A stretch of DNA of 64,000 nt from Xiphias gladius (lineage: Eukaryota > Chordata > Actinopteri > Istiophoriformes > Xiphiidae): NCBI RefSeq assembly GCF_016859285.1, contig NC_053415.1:16555001-16619000 (forward strand). Direction: 5' to 3'. The notes beneath the pieces were generated by a model. The model ran no database searches. It had not been told where the DNA came from and saw only the letters and a program-made list of their open reading frames with translations. Numbering within the stretch: position 1 is the first letter of the stretch; every line of letters begins with the position of its first letter. Both the position numbers and the translations under genes were made by a program. Shown one piece after another: positions 4,136 to 18,019 of the stretch.

Positions 4136-7100
4136 CTAGTGTGGCAAATAAACACATCCCATATGATACTAATGTCAAACCACCAATGTTTTATAAAAGA
4201 GGTTTGCCTTTTTTTTTTTTTTAACACTATGTAGTGTTTGGCTCTGTTTCATACTTTGCTGTGTGCTCATACTGTTTAGATAAAATGCACAAATTAGGGC
4301 AGGTTCTGTGTTCCCAACACAAAGATGAAAGCCGTCTCCAAAGCAAATGCCCAAGAGAAGCCATAATGAAAGCTCCAAGATTTTTTTTCCTGGCCATTCA
4401 AAGGAAAATATTTACTTATTATCTTTGCTATTGATGTTTCATATGGAAATTATTGCCAAGACATTGTGTGACGGAGAAAGTGTGCAGGCACAACGATGTG
4501 ACAGATCTTCAAACCCTAGCCAGGCCACAAAGAAATGTCTGAGACTTTATAATTAGCTTTAAACTGTCTTGATGGGAAGGAACCCACCACAAGATTCACG
4601 CAAACATGGCTGCTACTGTGCACACCTTCATTCATCCAGGAGGAGGTCTAATAACCAGTGTTTATATTGTGGTCACCAAATACGTACATGGCAACAGTGT
4701 TGTGTCTGATAGACCCTGTGTTGTTCAAACACACCCAAGGAGTGGATAACATCCTCAAATTAAGTTCCTTAATAGTGGAGTAATGACAACATTATAGCAT
4801 GCAAAAATCTCTGAAATGATCTGGTCAGCCCCCTACCCTTGCAGAGCAAGGCCTCACAAAGGAACTGAGATATATTTGAAGTTACTTAAACTACCTCTGA
4901 TTACTGAGATCATGCTTGGTTCAGTGAGGACAGTCAAACATCTTTTCAATCTTCTACCGTATACCTATTTTATCAGTCCCATATGTAGCATTTATAGGAA
5001 TATAAGTAGTATATTAATAAGTGTTTCCACGCTGTTGGATACTGCCATGGGTATAATAATCTTGCAGCCTTGGGCTCACTTGAATTTTACATGATGACCA
5101 AATGTTAAAAGAAAAATAAAAGCATAGGGTTTAAGTTGGACCCAAATATACAGTCATAAACATCATCACCCTAGAGGGATTGTTAAATATGGGATAATAA
5201 TAACTATGACAAACAATGCTCTGCCTTTACTTCTCATATGGTAAAAGCAGGGTCCAAAGACAATCAGGTTTTAAATAAAGTCTTTTATAGAGATAGGAAA
5301 GGGATATTATTTCATTATTGTGTCTAAACCACACTTAACAATTTATCAACATAATTATTGCCGGCGCCCAGGTTGCACTGTCACAATAAAGTATGGCCCA
5401 GAAAGAGCCAAGAACTTTTATGAGCTGATATTAATTGATTTGTCCTAACCTACCCAGACCTGGTGTCCCTGGGCTCCGCTTCCTCAGAGCAGTGGAGCGG
5501 TGCCAATACTCTGTCCTAACTCTGCATAAAAATAAATGAGAAGCTATGTGGCTAGTTTCTAAAGTCAGAGGATATTGTTCGATTTCACGTCAGCCCTCCA
5601 GGAGGCAATTTAAACAACCCAGCATGCTAATCAACCTGGTATAAAAGGCAGTTCTGGAGGGTGGCCCATTCCTCTTTTTTCCCCCTCTCTCCTATTGCAA
5701 CAAGGCCAAAAAGATCCTAAACAATCTGAGGGGAAAAGTATAATTGGGCTTGTATCTGAGAGAACACTACACTCCAATGTAATATGACTATAAGGTGTTG
5801 AAAAGGAAACAACCATTCTTGCATTAAAGGGCATGCCCTGGCCAGTTGTACAACATGGGCTGACATGCTATTGTTGCATTTTTTCAATATCTAGGAAAAC
5901 ATAAAAAAGCCCCACTGCTATAGCAATCATCCCAGAGAAAAGATACTTATATAAAACATGTTGGCATGGAAAAACAAAGCACTGCTCCACTGGAAGACTC
6001 AGAGCCAGGACGTGAGCTTCCCTGCTGCCGTCAACACATCAACAATGTCTCAGTGGAACCACACTGTGATCCTCGTCTGAAGAGGCAGAGGCCCCCAATC
6101 TCCACAAATAATTCAATACTCTAACATCCCCTCAGTATTTGTTGCGACCACAGAAATATGATAGTGTTCATTCTCTGCTTGTGCCCTGAACCCAAAGGTC
6201 AGGTGGTAGCAGATCACAGACTTCTCTGTGACTCGGAGGTTAAACTAATCTTGCATAACTTTCTCACGTAGCCCAACCAGTGCCCTTAGAAATCTACAAC
6301 AGCTTGTCATTGAGCGGTGGGTGAACCTGATTTATTACATCACTGAGCAGTTTGGTTGACTTGACTGCTGGTTTACTTTGGCAGTTGTGTTGTTCCTCAC
6401 TGAATTCACTGTAGACCTAAAATGAAATGTGCATGTACTCCGTTACTGATACAAACTTCGATGCAATTGTCCAATAAGACATGTTTCTTTGAACTTTTCT
6501 GAATTATATGCTTGAACCAGCTCAGACTCACACTGCATTTTCACAGCCCCTTATCAAAACCTGTCCTGAGCACAAGGCAATATCACAAATATGAATGTTT
6601 TAGACTTTAGATAAATGTTCCGCAGTAAATTCCTGTAAAGCCACATTTCAGTATTACATTCTTCTACAGTGTTTTTGATAAGCATGCCTTTTTAGCCAGG
6701 AATGTCCTTCAACCATCTCAGTGCTGAGGTCTTGAAAAGAAGTAATTTCTCACACCCCAGTTTGAAAATCAGCCCATGACTAGAGGTAAAGACTGATAAA
6801 CAGTGCCCCCTACCGACACAACAATATTCTTACAGTTACTTTGTAAATCCCTTTTTTCTTTTTTCTATGTGAGTAAGTTCAGTTCAACATCAGTGTATTA
6901 CCTTATTTTTCTCTTAATTCATAGCGAGTGTATTGAATTTCATGTCACCATTAACCCCTCCTTCAACTTTTAATGAAATCTACAAGCAAACCCTGCAACT
7001 TTCAATGAACATTCGGGCACTATTACTAATTTTTCTTTTTTTTTTTTTTTTTTTTACAATTCAAAGAAACAGGAATCCAAGCTCTTGATATATATCATGC

Positions 7101-8094
7101 TATGCATTAGCGTTGTCTGTACAGGTAAGTGCACTGAAGGTTGTTCAAAACATCATCAAAAACTACAGCAAGAAAAAAGTAAACAAAACACAAACAAAAA
7201 TCACAAAATAATTAATGAACAATCATTAAAATATAATTACAAAGATAACCTGACCTGTGAAAAATTTCAAGTATTATCACAGCTATGGATTAGCACATAT
7301 AAAAGACATATGACATTCTTTTTTAATTACATGGAAGAACAGATAGATATCTGATGACTGATTTTTAAACGCATGCGTGGGGGTTACCCTTTACAGTGGG
7401 GTCCAAAAGTCTGAGACTTTGGACTCCACTGTGTTGTTAAGTCCTTTATGAATCCAGAGGGGTTTCTGATTCTGATATTACTGTCCCCTTTTAGCCTTGA
7501 CACAGTCACTGCACATCCAACTAAACTTATTTCTTCATAAGATTAGCGTTTACTTGTTATATTGTGGCGAGTTAAATATACAGTATAGGTGCTTACTTGA
7601 TTTATAGAAAATGTAGCATCATCAGTAGAAACCTCTTATGTTACCTTTAAAAAACAGACAATAAAAAATGTAATATAAAATGCAGCTGCTAGTTAAATAC
7701 ATTACATGAATGATATTAAAAGTAGGTAAGGAGTTAAAAGTAACAGGACCAGGGAAATCTTAAGAGAAGAGTACTAACAAGTGTAAATGAAAGCAATACT
7801 TTTTCTGTACTCTGTGTTTAACGTCTGGTACTCTGTCAGCCACATCGTACAAACTGTCATTTCTGTAGTACAATTTCAGGCTCATTTAGTCTCTTGTCCT
7901 TAACTATGTACAAAAGGAGCTAACTCTGTTGTACTTGTGTCAGTCCCACAGTGAATATTTGTCCTCCTTTGGAATGTCTTTGACTGAATGTCCTCCATAC
8001 TCATAAGTGCCCCTTTACATATTTGTATTGATCTTATTCCTTTGCCCTCTGCTATGTTGTATTTGTAACTTCGCTTCACTGTCTACTTCCTTCT
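4136..8094. other. Intergenic, downstream of the CD2-like gene
   Basis: No gene recognised. It holds a poly(T) run near 7031-7055 and AT-rich sequence. Nothing resembles a spliced exon or a structured RNA. Confidence 0.55.
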
Positions 8095-8100
8095 TTTATT
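8095..8100 (-). terminator. Probable poly(A) signal of the CD2-like gene
   Basis: The plus strand reads TTTATT, which is AATAAA on the minus strand. It lies about 50 bases past the second in-frame stop (8148-8150) and about 470 bases past the first TGA (8568-8570). The whole 8148-8884 stretch is therefore probably transcribed, whether or not its distal part is translated. Confidence 0.5.
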
Positions 8101-8147
8101 TTTTAATTTTCAGATCGCCCAGTTGAATGCAGGCCTATTAAACAACT

Positions 8148-8567
8148 TCAGCTTTCTCTTGTATCCCCACTCAGGTATTCATTGCCAGGCTTTTTTTCTT
8201 TTGGGCCAGACTGGTCCTCATTTGTCTCATCAGTTATACCATCACCCTGCCCTTTATCTGTCTCTGCTGTGCTGCTGTCTGGCTGTACCTCAGACTCATC
8301 TGGTGCATACCTGGTCTTCCTTAATGGTTCTTGGTCTGGATCTGCATGGGCAGTGTTCATAGACTCTTGAAAGGCATTGGTTTTACTGTTGTCTGGTTTT
8401 GTTTGTGTGGGGCTCTGAGGTTGCTGAAAGGTTTCGAAAGATAGATTCTGTTCTGTATCTATTTCTTCCCTGTTACCTACAGTATCTGATTCACTGTCAT
8501 CTTCAGATACTGTTTCCGTTTCTAGCTGGTCGTCTTCTCTTGTGTGTGTTTCTCCCTGTGACAGGCT
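8148..8567 (-). pseudogene. Tail-like frame after an in-frame TGA in the last CD2-like exon
   Basis: The exon that begins at 8884 meets TGA at 8568-8570. The same frame then runs open for 139 more codons to TGA at 8148-8150. The extra stretch has the same character as the tail before it: rich in Glu, Asp, Ser, Thr and Gln, with no hydrophobic runs. Examples are TVSEDDSESDT, EIDTEQNLSFE and YAPDESEVQPD. This suggests a former longer tail cut by a nonsense change (CGA to TGA would do it), a readthrough site, a sequencing error, or removal of the TGA by splicing. If read through, the product would be 653 aa. Confidence 0.5.
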
Positions 8568-11500
8568 TCAATCTTGCTCATGCAAAGCTGCTTCTGAACT
8601 ATTCTGTTCAGGAACGGTGGACAACTGTCTCTCCTCACTAGAGTCAACTGATACATTTCTTTCCTCTGAGACTGGTGAGTCAGATTCTCTGGATTTTTTC
8701 TCTGAAATTTCTCCATTAGCCTGATCTGACTTGGCATCTTCCCTATGTCCACCAGCAGTGTCCTTAGTTCCCATATCTGTGGAGTTTTGGGTCAAAGGCG
8801 AACATGGCTGAGCAGTAGGAGACAAGATGCCATTTGCAGGAGGGGACTTTGCTTCCTCATTCTCATCTAACGCCTTCTCTGACTCTGAAACAGTAAAAAG
8901 AGTAAAGAAGTTAGTATCAAAACTGCACCTGTCTGCTAAGAGTTTGCAAAGGGGTTAAGTCAAGGCAGTCTTGGTTTTAAAATCAGTCAGAATCAGTCTT
9001 AGTTGATGGAAGTTTTAGCAGTGAGCAAAGCTAAGAAATCATTTACCATGTAATCAATGGACTGCATTAAAACAAATAAATGAATGAATCAAGCACAGGT
9101 TCTCTTCTTGCTCTATGGTACAGTACTGCCCAAAATAATATCACATTACGGATTCTAAATACATGCCAATCTCTCACTGTCATCACTCTACTGTACTGTA
9201 GACTGAAAAAAAATGTTTCAATTGCCAATTCCGACTCTTATTTCAACAACTTAGCGTGTCTATCCAAACAAGATGCAAAGTCATTTGAATTAGATAAATG
9301 TTTAAAGCAATAAAAATGATAAAAATAATTTGTATAGCATTTTTCTAAAATGACACCTTTTTAGATGACTGCCTTATGACGCAGAATGAAACAACCCCAG
9401 CCAAAGAACATATTAATGAAAACAGAGACGAAATACTAAAAGCGTCACAAAAGAACAGTAAATTATACATGAGAGATAAAGAAGAAAAAATAAAGTATGG
9501 TTAAACACTATTAAAAAAATGACTTAGCATAAAAAAATTACAAGTCAAATAAATCTCAAAAGCTAACCAATGGCTGCTTGCATATGAACCTAACAGCCTG
9601 GCAGCAGCATTTTCTATAAAATAGCGGCAGGAGATGGTCTTTCAAATGATTCCCTGAATAGAACAGTTGCAGTAATCTACCCAGTATGATATGAACACAT
9701 ACATGCAATTTACCCTTAAATGACTTAAATTGGAAATATTTCTTAACTGGATGATGCGAGACTTCACGACATTAGTGGCCAGAAACTCAAAGGACATACG
9801 CCCAGTTTACAGGCACCATGCTAGACACTGAGAAAGTTCCAAAGCTTGATTTTAGCTGGTTCATAGGATTTTGGGTGCCGCAGATGATGTGTCTGAATTT
9901 GATTTGAATAATTGAAACGAATAATGCAGCTCTCAGGTGTTTTGTCACATCCAACATTTAACATTTGCAGTCATTGCTAGGTTTAAATAGGAAATAGCTA
10001 AGCATAGTGAAAAAAAACCCCATAAATCCAATATTACTGCCTTTTTCTTGACGGTTAGTTTCTTTTGTGTTAGCCTGTGTGTGAGTTTTTTTCCCCCCGT
10101 GAGACTGAATCTAGCTTGGATAGTGGTTTCCAAACCTGGCTGTGCAGGAGCAGTGGCTGGTTCAACATCAGACTGTGTGTCCTCCGTACAGTCCAACACA
10201 CCAGCTGGGTCTGGTTCATTTGCCTTCTCAGAGTCTGAACAATCACACTCCGGGACCTTTTCCTCTGTACGTCCTCTGGACTGATCTGCATCTGCATCTG
10301 CATCTCCTTTGTCGTTGCTAGGAAGATTGTCCGGATCCTGACAAAAAGATGGCTTTCTACCCAGAGGGGAAGGAGGAGAAACAGTTTTCTCATCCTTGTC
10401 TGTGCTCCTCTCTAAACCCGAAACCCAGGAAAAAGAAATTATAGAAAAAGAATGCTTTAAGACATCAAACCATAGAGAAGCAGTCAGAGGAGTTGGGTGT
10501 CAAATAGTCCAGTTAGGAGCAATGTGTGATGTTAACATCAAGTAGTGCTGAAACAATAACATGATTAATCGGATTAAAGTATACCTTGATTTCAGTTATG
10601 TTTAAAGCTGAGACACTGGAGTGTAACTCTTCAAAAGCATTGCTATTTCTCATAAAAGGAATCAATCAGGTAAAAACATTCTTTTCTAAACTCTAATAAA
10701 ATTCGAAGCTTAGAAAAAGGTCTAAAAGCGAGAGAATCCAACCTGGGCCTCTGCAACACAGGCAAGTAGTGTTGAAACAATAACATGATTAATTAATCAA
10801 CTCTAATTTCAATTACTGATTAATATTTTAAGTCAACTTAGGTTTCCAATTTGTATGTCATATTACAGATTAAATGATTAATCGTTTTTTTCAAAAAATA
10901 AGAAACAGATGAAGTAATGAAAATAAGAATTAGTTGCAGCTGTTAATTAAGCTAACAATCCATTTTCTAAGAATTGTGTTGTTAGCTAATTATTACAGGT
11001 ATATTAAATTGAACAAAGGCATCGATCAAAACACAGTCTTTACACCTGCTTTTAACACACATTTTTAAAAAAATTGAATCTACACTGACCAAATTTGAGA
11101 TATTTGGAATTAAAGAAGGAATCCTTCCTGGGCAAAATGAGAAGATAAAGGAAAAAAATTCTAAATATTTGTGGATGTTTTATTACTATATTGAATAATT
11201 TCAGTAAGAATGTTTTTTTCCACTCCCTGTCAGTGCTTGTGCCATTCAGTCATCTGGCTGAAGCATAGGACGGATATTTTCTTTTGTAAATTTTATTACT
11301 AGAAAAATGACACTCAGAGAGAAAGTAAACAATGCAGAATGTTCTTTCACCATTATTACAAAGTGTTTTTCTATCAATTTGCTTTAAACCCAGGTTTTAC
11401 TATTGTTGTAGCACATAAACACATTTCCGAGCGACAGTAAAATTTGGGATAAACCTGCTTACAGCTTAAAACAGCTACATAAAAACACCCCAAGCCAGGG

Positions 11501-14500
11501 AACATATTAAGCAGCCTTTACCTTCTCCTTTGTCCAAGTCTATGGCTATGTCTTTTTTGTGAGTGCTATCAAGGAGGTTAGGCTTCATATTCCTATTACC
11601 TTGGTTCAAATGGCCAAGTCGCTGAGGACAAGGGAGTGTGGCTGCTCTGTCAAGAAAAGGCCTACATTCTTCGTCCTCAGCTGTCTCCTTATCTGACTCT
11701 GAAACAGAATAAAATACAAAATGTAATGTAACTCTCAAATAAGACAGAAAGAAATGAAAGATGCAAGAGATATTAGACAGAATGTCCATCATCAATAAAA
11801 AATAAAAATCATGAAGATCTGCACTTATTTGATTGAAAAATCTGTTATATATGGCCTATGATGTACTATCAATGTGGGTTTTCTTTATTGACCTCAGTCC
11901 AAGTGCAAATTATTAAAAATTTCCCAACATGCTCTATTACTAATTATTCACTTTAATTTAAAAGATTGTGTAGCTTTGGAGTTACGTGCTCTCCGAGTGC
12001 TTTCTAGCTCTTATCTGCAACACTACCTTTACACAATGAACAGTCAGCACCAGCCAAATGAAAGTAATTAAGTCAACATGCATAATCTGTTGCTTGTGTT
12101 TCATTTGGCTGAAATAACTGGTCATTGTCGAAACGCGCATATTCTGAAAAATTATAAACAGAAAAAAGAGGGAAAAAAAGAATTTAACAGAAACAGGAAA
12201 ATAGATAAAAACAGAAAGTACTCAGTAATAGGTCAGGTCTTTAATGTGCTAAATTTAATGAAATTCCTTTTCTTCTGAAATTTTCTTTGCTTTTCCATAA
12301 GTGTCTTTATTATGAAAAGCAAGTATGTACAAAACACTCATTTAAACAAACATGTTCAGCTGCTCTGCAATTCAAGCAGCACCAAAATAACACCATCATT
12401 ATTTTCATGAGCATCATTTGTGTCTACTGCTTGTTCTCTCATCTGAAATTATTATTAGCGACAGAAATTTAACTGACAACAGTAATTGATACTGAAAACA
12501 TGTGACACTTGCAGCCCTACATCTTAGACTGACCACTGAAAACATACAGTATCATACCTTCTGTTTTATCAGGTGGCAACTGTTTTTCCAAATCACCTTT
12601 GCTTCTTTCTGCAAAACATGCTGGACAAAAGAAGAAAGAAACAGTATGTTCTTGTTTCATCCTTTCTGAAGATCAGAGTCAGTAACAGCAGTGGCTGGTG
12701 TTCTGTACTGCTGCACGTAAATAGCTCTCTATACATACAGTTGGTAGACCTGGAAGAACTTTTGATCTCTAAATAACAAAGAATCTCTCCCTGTATAAAA
12801 CTTATTATTACATTTAGTCAACTGTTGCATATAGCTTTGGGAATACATCACTGAATATATATTCTCAGTGTGTATCTGCTCTATCTGCTATCTCAGTTGC
12901 TGAAAATGAAATAATTTTGGGAACAAATTCTCTGGCTAAGGTGTCATTTTTTAACTGTACCTTTACTGTTTTGTTTGCAGAACACTACGCCCAAAACCAA
13001 AAGGAGTAGTCCTATTAAAATGGTGGTGGCTAGGCTTGCAGCCAGTGCTACAGACTTTGGACTTTCATCTGCACAGAAACACAAAAGCCAAAGTTACAAA
13101 AACGTCTTACATTCATTAGTAAAACAATATTCATGTACTACTATAACTCAACATTTCAGTCTAGGTTTTTGAACATGAACTCTGCAGTCCTTCCTGATAC
13201 TACAACCAAAGGATATATTCATTTTGTAAATCACTTTGAAATTGCTTATGCAAAGAGATTTAATAAATGTATTCCATTATCATTATTATTGATTGTAGAC
13301 ACATGATGAACACATCATTTGTGTTCCATTTTGTTTTTACTTTCCTGTCAGCACTGGATAAAAATAAAGCTCAGCTGAGTTTGAAGCCTCTGCTTCACAT
13401 TTAGTGTCATCGTCAGTGCCACACTGCAGGTAATGTTTCTTTTTAATGAAACCCTTGTTGGGTATATTTGGCGGGTACATACTAAGAATATCCATACAAA
13501 TTATTTTCTGAAAGTACATTTACTTGAAAATGACGAATTCCACAGCATAAATTTTAAATATACAGTAGAGTAGACTTGAGAGATATCTTACCAGAGAAGC
13601 AATCCTTTGCAGTGAATGTAGCTGTTTCAACGGTCAGAGGATTGCTCACCCTACAAGTGTATTTTTTATCATCATGTTCATCCTCCAGAGATATTGTTAA
13701 CTCGGCGCCAGGCTGCGGGTTTCCACCTGAGCCCCACTCAAACTTCATTGAGGACTGAGGGTGTGTGGGATCTGCAGAGCACATCAGCGTTGCCTGGGTT
13801 CCATTTACAGTAGAGTTGCCATTATTCACCTCACAGGATATGGTGGGTTTGGCAACCTTATCTTTAGAAATATATATATAAATGGAAATAAATACATTAA
13901 TGCAAACCTAACAGAGAAAATAAATGATTCCCTTATGTTGCATGGATTTATGTAATAACATACATTACATTCATGAACCAACACTTTAAATGTGATATAG
14001 GTTATAAAGGGCATAAAGTGCTTATCAGAATGATAAGATATATTGTACGAGTTGTAGTTACACATTAAAGACATATGAATGAAAAAATATGACTGAATTA
14101 AATTAATAAAATAACTAAACTGGCAGTCATCAATAATTATGCCCCTGTGTTTAAGGTATAAATAGGTTTAGGCAACTATAACTACTTTGTTTAAGGGTAG
14201 GGAAACATCATGGTCATGACAAATTATTGTCACAGTATGGTTAAGGCTAGACTGAGACAGCTTTAGTGACAGAATGCTGCCACGGTTAAAGGAAATACAT
14301 ACCGACTGCTACATAACATTACGGTCAAAACCAAGACTTTGTACTGCAATATAAGAAAATCACAGTAATTCCTACTTTGGCACTGAAGGTAACGGTATAT
14401 TGTCTTCAGCTTCAGGAACAAACCACCATTAATTTCTAGAGAGCAAAGTCCCTCGGTTGATACCGCAGCCATAATAAAAAGCAAAGCAAATACACTAACT

Positions 14501-17500
14501 AAAAAATGCGTTTTTATAGGTGACATATTAAGAGATAATACTGGCTTTGATATCTGGATTTACTTTTGGGCGTCGGCAATGGTGGAGGAAGTACACAGAT
14601 CTTTAATACAACGATGTAAAAATACTCCATTAAAAGTAACAGCCTTGCTTTCAAAATTCCTCAACGTAAAGATAAACAAGTATTCACAGCAAACTGAACT
14701 TACAGTATCAAAAGTAAAAGTACTGGTTCTACAGTAAAATGTACTCTGTGACTAATGTATGTATACTATTATATATGACATTATTTGATTGTAAATACTG
14801 ACGCATCATTATGCATGTAGCATTTTATTGTTGGTCAAATTGGAGCGGGTTTTAATTAGTTTATATACAGTTATACAGGCTAATGTGTGAATGGTTTGTT
14901 GAGCTTCCACCCTGACCCCCATAGAGCAAGCTGTAAAATCTTCTTAAGAAATGTAGTAGTGGATTTGAACACAGAAAGCCTTGAACCTACAAAAATGCGC
15001 ATCATTAACTTTTGAACCCATTTCAGTTCTTCACAGTGTTACTTGTTGGTGAGAAAAACATTTCAGGTGAGAAAAAGTTGCTGACCAGAGAGCAACTGTG
15101 CATGCAGCTAAAAAAAAAGTCCTAAATCTGATACTGCTACTCTGTTTACATGATGATTTATACTACAAAAACTAAAAAAATTCTGAATTGCCAATTTCAC
15201 ATGAAATTGCAATTAAAAAACTATAAAATTAATTTTAGAAAGTTCCAAAAATTCTCAATACATCCCTGACCATGATGAAATTTACAATTTGAAACACAAA
15301 CCGTGCCAAAGGTCCAGTGCCTTTATAGTAGAAATATCTCCCACTACCATACCCCTTTCAGGTCTTAATAGTTTTATATTAGTGAGTCAGAAGCTTTTTC
15401 TGAAATTCATTCCCGGACAACGGTTGTTCTATGTACAGTGTCCCCCATTGCAGGCATTAACACTGTGGTTCAGAGTTGTAAAACATAAAAAAATCCAATA
15501 CGTCACCGGTAGTGGCAAAGGCTACTAAGGAACCTAATATCCTTCTTTTTCACTGCAGGTAGCCTCTTTTCTTTGTGTGATCATTTTGGCCATGACATTA
15601 ACTGACAAGGGGCCTCACTGAAGAACACATTTGTATTCTTGTCCTAAATCTCTCTTACTTTTTTCCTCGGCTCGTACCTTCCTAGTCGGACTCAACAAAC
15701 TCTCTTCACTGGACAAACGTGTCATAAAACGCTTGTTTCAGCCCGATAAATGCCATGTGTTACCAGAGAAATGCCAGAGAATATTATAGCCTATAGCAGG
15801 TGACATTACACTGTCACATGCAACAGAGGGTGATACTGCATAGAGACTGGTGAATTTCGTTCGAACCTGAGAGAAAAATTCTAAATACGTTAAAAGAGGA
15901 GTCACAAATTCTCTTAAAGTGGACGTATATGCATCTTGAGACCAAATCTGTTCATATGAATGGTTCCATTGTCCTGAGAGCGATGACTTGTCAAAAATTT
16001 GTTCATTGTTCAAGTTGCTATAGCAACACATCAGCTTCTTGCTACATAATGCAGGTACCCATGTTTAGAAAACTGATCAATCAACTGTATATAGGTATAC
16101 AGCCACTTTGTCGAAAAACTTACCTATGACCTTTAATTTATAATGTGAATGATGCACATCTTTGTTCATTATGAATGCTTCCAATTCAAATTCTCCACTG
16201 TCTTCATATCGGAGGTCTGTGATGTTTAGTTCTGCAGAGACCCAGTCAAGAGTGACCCTGTTGTGAAACCGGTCGTACACCTGTTCCTCCCTGCCATTAA
16301 ACTCTACCACTTTGTCGCGATTATGCTTCCACAGAATATGATCAGGTTGTCCAGTGACGTGTGGCTTCAGGTGGAACGTCTGCCCCGGGAGGCCATATGT
16401 TTGAGGCTGCCCAGAAACTAGACACAGAGAATGGAGAGGTGTGGAAAAATGGAGGATAACGTGTTAAAGAGTTTAGTATATTTTAAACATTGAAGGATAT
16501 GGTAACAACACAAGACTTCTCTAATGTAAATTTAGTTGCTAATTCTTTCGGAACACCTTCACAATGTGATATAATCTAATATAAATAAATCTCCAATAAA
16601 TCCTATTCGTACGAAGCTTATAATGTTCAGACTTTGCTGTCACTGAGAGTTTCAATGTAAGCGAGAGTGTTCAGCCTTGACCTTGAAATATATAGTTTAA
16701 CCTAAAAATCTCAACTAATACTCCACTTACTGTCTTCTTCTGGAGCTTTCAACTGAATTTCACAGTGTTTAGCAGCAGATAGAGCTTGTTCAGTCGTGAC
16801 GGAGACGGTTTCGCTGTCATCACGTGACCCAAGTATGGAACTTCGTTCACGTGACAACAGCTGGGCACACCTGAACAGACTGAATGGAAATGGGTGCTAT
16901 GTCTAAGTCTGTTTCCCCTTTAAATAGCGTTTCCCACAGCACTGGCCTCCATGGTCTGGCTTAAGGCTTAACTTAAGGTTGGCGTCACAGAGATGACTGA
17001 TTCAGAGCTCAAACGATTAGGCGATTAATCAATTAGTCAGCTTTTTTGATAATAGATGAATTTTCAGTAATTTTGTTTTTTTTCTCGTTCCATCTTCTAA
17101 ATTGTTGGAATTTCTCACTTTTCTTTGTGTTTTGTGATAGTAAAATGAATATCCTTAGGTTTTAGAGTGTTGATGTCAAGCATCAACCACTCTGACTGCA
17201 TCATGCTAGACTTTTTTGTTGAATTGTGATGGATAGTGCAGACAGTTTGTTGTTTTCTGATGTTTTACGGACTAAATTAGAGCTGCAACCATTACTTAAT
17301 CCATGAATTAGTGGACAGACAGAAAATGAATCGGCAACTATTTTAATAATCAAACTGATGAAGACCATGTGATGCAGTTGAAAAGCAAATATAAAGACCT
17401 TAAGTCACGACTGTATTGTCAAACACTTCAAAACTATTCAGTCTAACATAAAACTACACAAACTACAGCCCCAAGAAGTACCACAAAGTGTCAACAAAAA

Positions 17501-18019
17501 TGATACAGTGTAAGCTGACAAAAGGAAAGTAGGTAACTTAAAGGGTTGTTGTATTATGTTCAAGTGTAACTACAAGCTTAAAGTCGATGTAAATCATTTG
17601 CGTAAATGGTTATAAGTTTGGTGTATTTCTTGGTTTTCCCTTAGTATCAGAAATAATGCTGTGTTTAAGTAATAACTTCAGCTAGAAATTAAACAGTAGG
17701 CATATTTAAAAAAAAAAAAAAAAAAAAAAGTCTGTCAACAAAGGTGTTGAAAAACGATACGTCAATCTTTGCAATCTATAGCCTACAACAGGCGCATGTG
17801 TTTTTTTTTTTAACTTGCTGTGTGAAAACATGAACTGTTGAACCTTAGATAAATCAGTACCTTGACGTGTGGGGCCTGCGTGTAAATCTGCCAGCTCTCT
17901 GCACTGTACTTTTCATGTCCATACAAAAATAAATAAATAAATAAAATCAGCGCAACCATGTGCAACTTACCTAGGCAGGATGTTAAGATACCACAGGCCA
18001 GGAAATACCATTGAGCCAT
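8568..18019 (-). CDS. CD2/CD58-like Ig-superfamily receptor, spliced, 8 coding exons
   Basis: A type I membrane receptor of the CD2 family, expected to mediate cell-cell adhesion or co-stimulation on leukocytes (family knowledge). Minus-strand exons by splice and phase: 17971-18019, 16124-16417, 13592-13861, 12961-13068, 12558-12608, 11522-11698, 10136-10411 and 8568-8884; every internal boundary is phase 1. The predicted 513 aa run as follows: signal peptide about 1-16; V-type Ig 17-114 with no cysteine; C2-type Ig 115-204 with four cysteines; helix about 211-232; then an acidic, Ser/Pro-rich tail. The cysteine-free first domain and two-disulphide second domain are the CD2/CD58/CD48 pattern. 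I see no ITSM tyrosine motif, so a classical SLAM receptor is less likely. The start ATG at 18019 opens a hydrophobic leader. The donor at 10136 (CAG|GTTTGG) is weak and that limit is the least sure. The first TGA may be premature (see the 8148-8567 entry). CD2 versus CD58 orthology is unresolved. Confidence 0.8.
10136..12608 (-). CDS. CD2-like cytoplasmic exons 5-7
   Basis: Three exons (12558-12608, 11522-11698, 10136-10411) encode a charged, low-complexity tail. They open with ERSKGD, ESDKET and ERSTDK; the next exon (8884) opens with ESEKAL, so the exons look like a duplicated series. Exon 7 contains a Pro-rich piece (SPPSPLGRKPS) and a hexanucleotide run near 10281-10306 encoding Asp-Ala repeats. 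All are phase 1 to 1. The exon 7 donor is uncertain; alternatives lie between about 10135 and 10260. Confidence 0.65.
10540..10950. repeat. Fragments of a 'gattaatcgattaat' interspersed repeat
   Basis: Two related pieces (about 10542-10600 and 10769-10945) share 'gtagtg(c/t)tgaaacaataacatgattaatc', and the second continues to 'gttgcagctgttaatt'. A related copy lies at about 17005-17410. I recall a widespread fish repeat with this gattaatc-rich motif. It is intronic in the CD2-like gene and non-coding. Confidence 0.45.
12961..13068 (-). CDS. CD2-like exon 4: transmembrane segment
   Basis: Thirty-six codons, phase 1 to 1. A short stalk (DESPKS) is followed by a roughly 22-residue hydrophobic helix ending in a Leu/Val run, and then by FCKQNSK as the stop-transfer. 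The acceptor has a good pyrimidine tract; the donor is AAAG|GTACAG. Confidence 0.8.
13592..13861 (-). CDS. CD2-like exon 3: C2-type Ig domain, four cysteines
   Basis: Ninety codons, phase 1 to 1. Cysteines occur in TISCEV, TLMCSAD, KYTCRV and AKDC, matching the two-disulphide membrane-proximal domain of the CD2 family. FEWGSGG supplies the core Trp. Sequons are NST and NGT. Confidence 0.85.
14570..14880 (+). repeat. Teleost 'agtaaaagtact' interspersed repeat, copy 1
   Basis: It begins 'ggtggaggaagtacacaga' and includes 'atgtaaaaatactccatta', 'aaaagtaaaagtactgg' and 'cattttattgttggtcaaattgga'. A second copy with the same order of motifs lies at 20034-20432. It sits in the intron between the V and C2 exons of the CD2-like gene. 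Confidence 0.6.
16124..16417 (-). CDS. CD2-like exon 2: cysteine-free V-type Ig domain
   Basis: Ninety-eight codons, phase 1 to 1. Landmarks are ILWKHN (C-strand Trp), VYDRFHNRVTLD, LNITDLRYEDSGEFEL (the D-x-G-x-[YF] turn with Phe) and YKLKVIG. There is no cysteine anywhere in the domain, as in the adhesion domain of mammalian CD2 and CD58. Two N-linked glycosylation sequons are not evident beyond LNIT. Confidence 0.85.
17005..17410 (+). repeat. 'gattaatcaattagtc' interspersed repeat fragment
   Basis: It contains 'gcgattaatcaattagtcag' and, further on, 'agctgcaacca' and 'aatcggcaactattttaataatc', typical of an old fish repeat related to the pieces at 10.5-10.95 kb. It lies in intron 1 of the CD2-like gene. 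Confidence 0.45.
17707..17728. repeat. Poly(A) run in CD2-like intron 1
   Basis: About 22 A residues. A simple homopolymer, with no retroposed gene recognised upstream of it. Confidence 0.7.
17971..18019 (-). CDS. CD2-like exon 1: signal peptide
   Basis: Sixteen codons plus one base, starting MAQWYFLACGILTSCL, followed by the strong donor G|GTAAGT. It is hydrophobic and short, and ends in phase 1 as Ig-superfamily leader exons usually do. Joined to the exon at 16417 it continues V-S-G-Q in frame. Confidence 0.8.

Follow-up and report, generated by a model that had tools for sequence, protein, structure and literature searches.

The window, a 64 kb stretch of swordfish DNA, carries on its minus strand a receptor gene of eight exons that runs from 18019 down to 8148, with all introns in phase 1 and with GT-AG ends (Table 1). 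The reading is open from the ATG to a first in-frame TGA through the eight exons, and this TGA is the sole break in the frame. Behind a signal peptide come the two Ig domains, IgV and IgC2, then a single membrane segment and a long acidic tail contributed by four exons (t1 to t4). The encoded protein comprises 517 residues up to the first TGA and 657 up to the second, including one residue at the present stop.

Table 1. Features of the receptor gene and of its last exon, in window positions
Feature	Position	Strand	Basis
Exon 1, start codon and signal peptide	17971..18019	-	ATG, GTAAGT donor, in frame with exon 2
Exon 2, IgV domain	16124..16417	-	top PDB match CD58, E 2.4e-9; splice sites
Exon 3, IgC2 domain	13592..13861	-	Pfam Ig_3, E 5e-7; splice sites
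Exon 4, transmembrane segment	12961..13068	-	hydrophobic stretch ATTILIGLLLLVLGVVF, judged by eye from the translation
Exon 5 (tail exon t1)	12558..12620	-	phase 1-1, splice sites
Exon 6 (tail exon t2)	11522..11698	-	phase 1-1; resembles start of exon 8, protein P 0.004
Exon 7 (tail exon t3)	10136..10411	-	phase 1-1; homologous to part of exon 8
Exon 8 (t4), portion ahead of first TGA	8571..8884	-	sequence
First in-frame TGA, context GAT TGA AGC	8568..8570	-	sequence
139 open codons past first TGA, coding signature	8151..8567	-	composition and period-3 tests
Second in-frame TGA	8148..8150	-	sequence
Perfect 11-bp hairpin, 13-nt loop, 54 nt past first TGA	8479..8513	-	shuffles and RNA fold
AATAAA poly(A) signal	8095..8100	-	only AATAAA between 8570 and 7000

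The last exon (8884-8148) reads as 105 acidic codons, the first of which is completed by the last base of the preceding exon, then the TGA at 8570-8568, another 139 codons in the same frame and the second TGA at 8150-8148. The initial annotation had described this layout, including the second stop and the poly(A) signal behind it, and its coordinates and frame are exact. An ATTAAA is also present, from 8107 on the minus strand. We refer to the portions of the exon ahead of and behind the first TGA as its upstream and downstream parts.

The gene had been taken for a CD2-like receptor, a name that gives way to CD58. In the PDB, the IgV exon matched CD58 (1ccz, E 2.4e-9; 1ci5, E 5.3e-9) far better than the best CD48 chain (E 0.0065) or a CD48/CD2 chimera (E 0.078). 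The IgC2 exon matched other Ig chains only, the best being CD22 (E 3.4e-5), among the 60 of 143 matches listed. According to PMC5990624, zebrafish cd58 comprises eight exons, including two that supply a cytoplasmic stretch without counterpart in human CD58, and lies near igsf3, ptgfrn and others, whereas zebrafish cd2 has five exons and lies on a different chromosome. The swordfish gene shares with zebrafish cd58 the eight exons, the IgV and IgC2 domains, the single membrane segment and the intracellular exons missing from human CD58 (PMC5990624). Its neighbourhood may also be alike: eight plus-strand Ig frames at 27.9-33.3 kb of the window have the look of IGSF3 or PTGFRN, and we treat them as a single IGSF3-like gene. 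Given the closer match of the IgV exon to CD58, the agreement with zebrafish cd58 in exon count and cytoplasmic exons, and the IGSF3- or PTGFRN-like frames nearby, the gene is most likely a cd58 (LFA-3) orthologue and not CD2. The two fish proteins differ in length, with 369 amino acids reported for zebrafish Cd58 (membrane segment 208-230, about 139 amino acids behind it; PMC5990624) and 517 or 657 here, depending on the TGA; the swordfish gene also differs from the zebrafish gene as described there in that its last tail exons are related by duplication. The same source argues that the CD58 tail shortens from fish to mammals.

A candidate alternative last exon was seen at 12143-11884 on the minus strand. 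Its acceptor ends at 12144 (score 4.5, 98th percentile); it is in phase with t1 and ends in ARFDNDQLFQPNETQATDYAC, followed by a TGA at 12075-12073, with an AATAAA from 11889. If used, this exon would give a short-tailed CD58.

The relation between tail exons was clearest for t3 and the upstream part of the last exon. Their DNA alignment (10313-10140 with 8749-8604) scored 68, compared with means of 27-28 for two kinds of shuffles, and no shuffle scored as high (0/1,000 each); the same held for the protein comparison (0/1,000). This homology stops 33 nt short of the first TGA. The start of the last exon also resembles t2 (protein P 0.004; DNA 0/200 shuffles as high), and between t2 and t3 there was no likeness beyond chance (P 0.40 and 0.32). 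Judged by these alignments, t3 and t4 are duplicates and, since t2 resembles the start of t4 as well, exon duplication seems to have built up the long CD58 tail. The t3 and t4 proteins can be aligned with many gaps only, and such divergence between duplicates suggests that the tail is under loose constraint.

We also considered whether the t3/t4 module recurs a third time in the downstream part, and make no such claim, as this part has no convincing relative among the tail exons. P was 0.01 in an initial DNA test; with dinucleotide and codon shuffles, respectively, it was 0.03 and 0.05 for the comparison with t3, and 0.15 and 0.13 for that with the upstream part. At the protein level, P was 0.25 with t3 and 0.73 with the upstream part (0.11 when the first half of the downstream part was used). 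Intron sequence past the t3 donor was rejected as its source too (P 0.30). No Pfam family matched either tail part or t3 up to E 1, and no NCBIfam family matched either tail part up to the same value. A search of the swordfish genome (690.8 Mb, 1,298 contigs) with the upstream protein (E up to 0.1), the downstream protein (E up to 10) and DNA (E up to 1) found no second copy, paralogue or haplotig besides the copy in the window. Among prokaryote contigs there were 36 pattern matches and among viral contigs one, none of them confirmed, a result that is uninformative for an animal gene.

Shuffled versions of the 417 nt behind the first TGA contained 7.0-7.3 in-frame stops on average; the stretch itself contains none. 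Stop-free shuffles were rare with mononucleotide (12/20,000) and dinucleotide (1/5,000) shuffling and did not occur when upstream and downstream bases were pooled (0/5,000), and the other two frames of the same strand have 7 and 13 stops. These counts, together with a composition that matches the upstream frame, bear out the initial expectation that random sequence would seldom stay open for so long in the same style. The stretch contains 14% T, and its T-poor bases favour open frames. Moreover, the window contains 45 stop-to-stop frames with 110 codons or more, and 20 of these (the downstream frame included) extend to 139 codons or beyond, some of them not evidently coding, so that frame length alone is insufficient proof of coding.

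Composition and periodicity gave further evidence. The period-3 power of the downstream part was 3.93 (shuffle mean 0.74; 0/2,000 shuffles as high), compared with 5.66 for the upstream part, 1.09 for the bases past the second stop (8147-7700; P 0.18) and 0.64 for the preceding intron (P 0.50). When t2, t3 and the upstream part served as training set, a codon-position model scored the downstream stretch at +21.5 bits in frame, at -53 and -64 in the other two frames and at best -19 on the reverse strand. With t2 and t3 alone as training set, the scores were +22.3 in frame versus -48 and -61 (34 of 14,130 windows as high), and with the Ig, membrane and first tail exons they were +16.8 versus -13 and -35 (26 of 14,130). 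Training on the IGSF3-like gene (1,014 codons) gave weak separation (+5.3 versus +0.7 and -25.6; 353 of 14,130 windows as high), and this model did little better on tail exon t3 (+6.1 versus +2.2 and -21.0). When the exon was scanned in 90-nt windows at 45-nt steps using the first of these models, the frame was best in all 15 windows starting from 8885 down to 8255, and in one of the seven that reach beyond the second stop, with a negative score. On both strands of the 64 kb, 417-nt windows above 10 bits fell in two regions only, the last exon and t3, both of which are in the training set. Acidic residues make up 26% of the downstream part, 23% of the upstream part and 25% of t2 and t3 (shuffles: 10%), and hydrophobic residues 12%, 12% and 17% (shuffles: 19%).

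Since the frame is free of stops beyond what shuffles give, has period-3 structure, fits the codon-position composition of the upstream frame and of no other, and is acidic, we conclude that the downstream stretch is present or former coding tail. The initial view of the stretch as tail coding sequence and not ordinary UTR is thus supported by the period-3 signal, by the codon-position models and by the loss of signal at the second stop.

A single in-frame stop, a coding signature on both sides of it and 417 undamaged nucleotides behind it make it probable, in our judgement, that a recent stop-gain, segregating or fixed, has truncated the last exon. The frame is intact on either side of the stop, with no frameshift and no further stop in the 417 nt. 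From what is directly seen in the exon, namely the intact frame, the stop and the signature on both sides, we infer the direction of change: the ancestral last exon would have coded tail as far as the second TGA (657 residues), and a point mutation, probably recent, would have created the TGA at 8570-8568. The present protein most likely ends at 517 residues, having lost 139 acidic tail residues, a segment that was probably disordered, together with the residue at the stop. Transcripts with a premature stop in their final exon are as a rule spared nonsense-mediated decay. Since no such decay is expected here, since the mutation leaves the Ig and membrane portions intact and since the tail is quick to diverge, the shortened protein should be tolerated.

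Single-base changes that would make a stop in the downstream stretch number 52 of 1,251. Assuming 0.12 frameshifting indels per substitution, the chance that the frame would remain undamaged under neutral drift falls from 0.51 at 1% divergence to 0.26 at 2% and 0.034 at 5%. Because this chance is low at the higher divergence, either the event is recent or constraint on the stretch persists. The initial annotation had named a reference error from CGA to TGA as one option, which is possible in itself and lacks specific support, CGN codons being absent among the exon's 244 sense codons. Stop-gain alleles in last exons are a general class, and the present case resembles them in having one stop in an otherwise undamaged last exon and in the removal of a C-terminal tail. 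The position of the poly(A) signal speaks against a stop-gain: with the second stop as the original end, about 50 nt would separate that TGA from the AATAAA, which is short compared with the 387-bp 3' UTR given for zebrafish cd58 in PMC5990624.

An error in the assembly sequence or consensus, with the real gene running on to the second stop, is unlikely. One wrong base would account for everything, including the lack of decay downstream; however, the window is without any N and the gene has no other frame break.

Splicing could also take the TGA out of the message, through an intron lying within the last exon (8654-8556 or 8638-8342) or by joining t3 to the acceptor at 8342, and we regard this as improbable. 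Candidate in-frame introns had to measure 60 nt or more, excise the TGA and keep the reading open; 226 qualified, of which the best 12 and the 8654/8556 pair were listed, and they were scored with approximate splice-site matrices, set against the gene's own sites. The seven used donors score 0.1 to 7.0, the seven used acceptors -2.1 to 8.0 and the intron sums 1.4 to 11.9. Since some used sites are weak themselves (the t3 acceptor, -2.1; the membrane-exon donor, 0.1), site scores alone do not exclude splicing. The best pair, 8638/8342 (donor CTA/GTGAGG 1.9, acceptor -1.5), has each site inside the range of used sites, and the 8342 acceptor is in phase with t3 and the best of 22 such AGs. Nevertheless, the sum of this pair (0.4), the highest of the 226, lies under those of all seven used introns, both introns inside the exon would cut out 8638-8604, which is homologous to coding exon t3, and 8638-8342 is T-poor (0.17, versus 0.31-0.38 in the gene's seven introns). 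The 99-base intron proposed initially (8654-8556) is unlikely: its donor AAT/GTATCA (-3.7) falls below all seven used donors, the pair sums to -2.1, and about half of it (8654-8604) is homologous to t3, although its T content (0.24) is less unusual, 10% of 725 99-nt intron pieces being as low. A strong donor-like CAG/GTATGC is found inside the downstream frame at 8310 on the minus strand (score 4.4, near the 99th percentile for GTs across the window).

Programmed readthrough or UGA recoding, yielding a minor long form with the 139-residue extension, is very unlikely. It would agree with an undamaged extension that has a coding signature, and the stop is a UGA. An 11-bp hairpin follows 54 nt downstream, where the longest stem in 100 shuffles had 9 bp, and the fold has a z of -2.1 (5/200 shuffles at least as stable). 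Readthrough-stimulating hairpins are usually closer to the stop, and at this greater distance a role of the hairpin (8513-8479) in readthrough is doubtful. The hairpin is nevertheless beyond chance and, like the undamaged frame, also fits continued use of the extension. Selenocysteine recoding was rejected, no SECIS being among the six matches to Rfam (E up to 10) for the region 7000-9000. In PMC4132726, the confirmed mammalian readthrough genes OPRL1, OPRK1, MAPK10 and AQP4 have, as cd58 has here, a UGA stop and then an in-frame extension with a coding signature. All four carry CUAG after the UGA, whereas the swordfish gene has AGC (PMC4132726). That cd58 is a readthrough gene without CUAG, perhaps helped by the hairpin, with two signalling forms from one mRNA, is scarcely probable.

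That the stretch is ordinary 3' UTR, open by chance through its T poverty (14%), is highly improbable: frames as long as this one are not unusual in the window and the IGSF3-trained model separates this frame weakly, but shuffles of its own bases seldom stay open, its period-3 and codon-position composition fit the upstream frame and no other, and its acidic content is 26% versus 10% in shuffles.

For a receptor whose acidic tail is long, gaining a stop in the last exon is an ordinary event of a known kind. Readthrough would be of real interest, has little support and, if true, would make a costimulatory receptor an example of readthrough that does without CUAG. If the recent truncation that we favour is correct, gene models that end at either TGA would each give half the picture, and the case would show that the long CD58 tail is free to vary in length.
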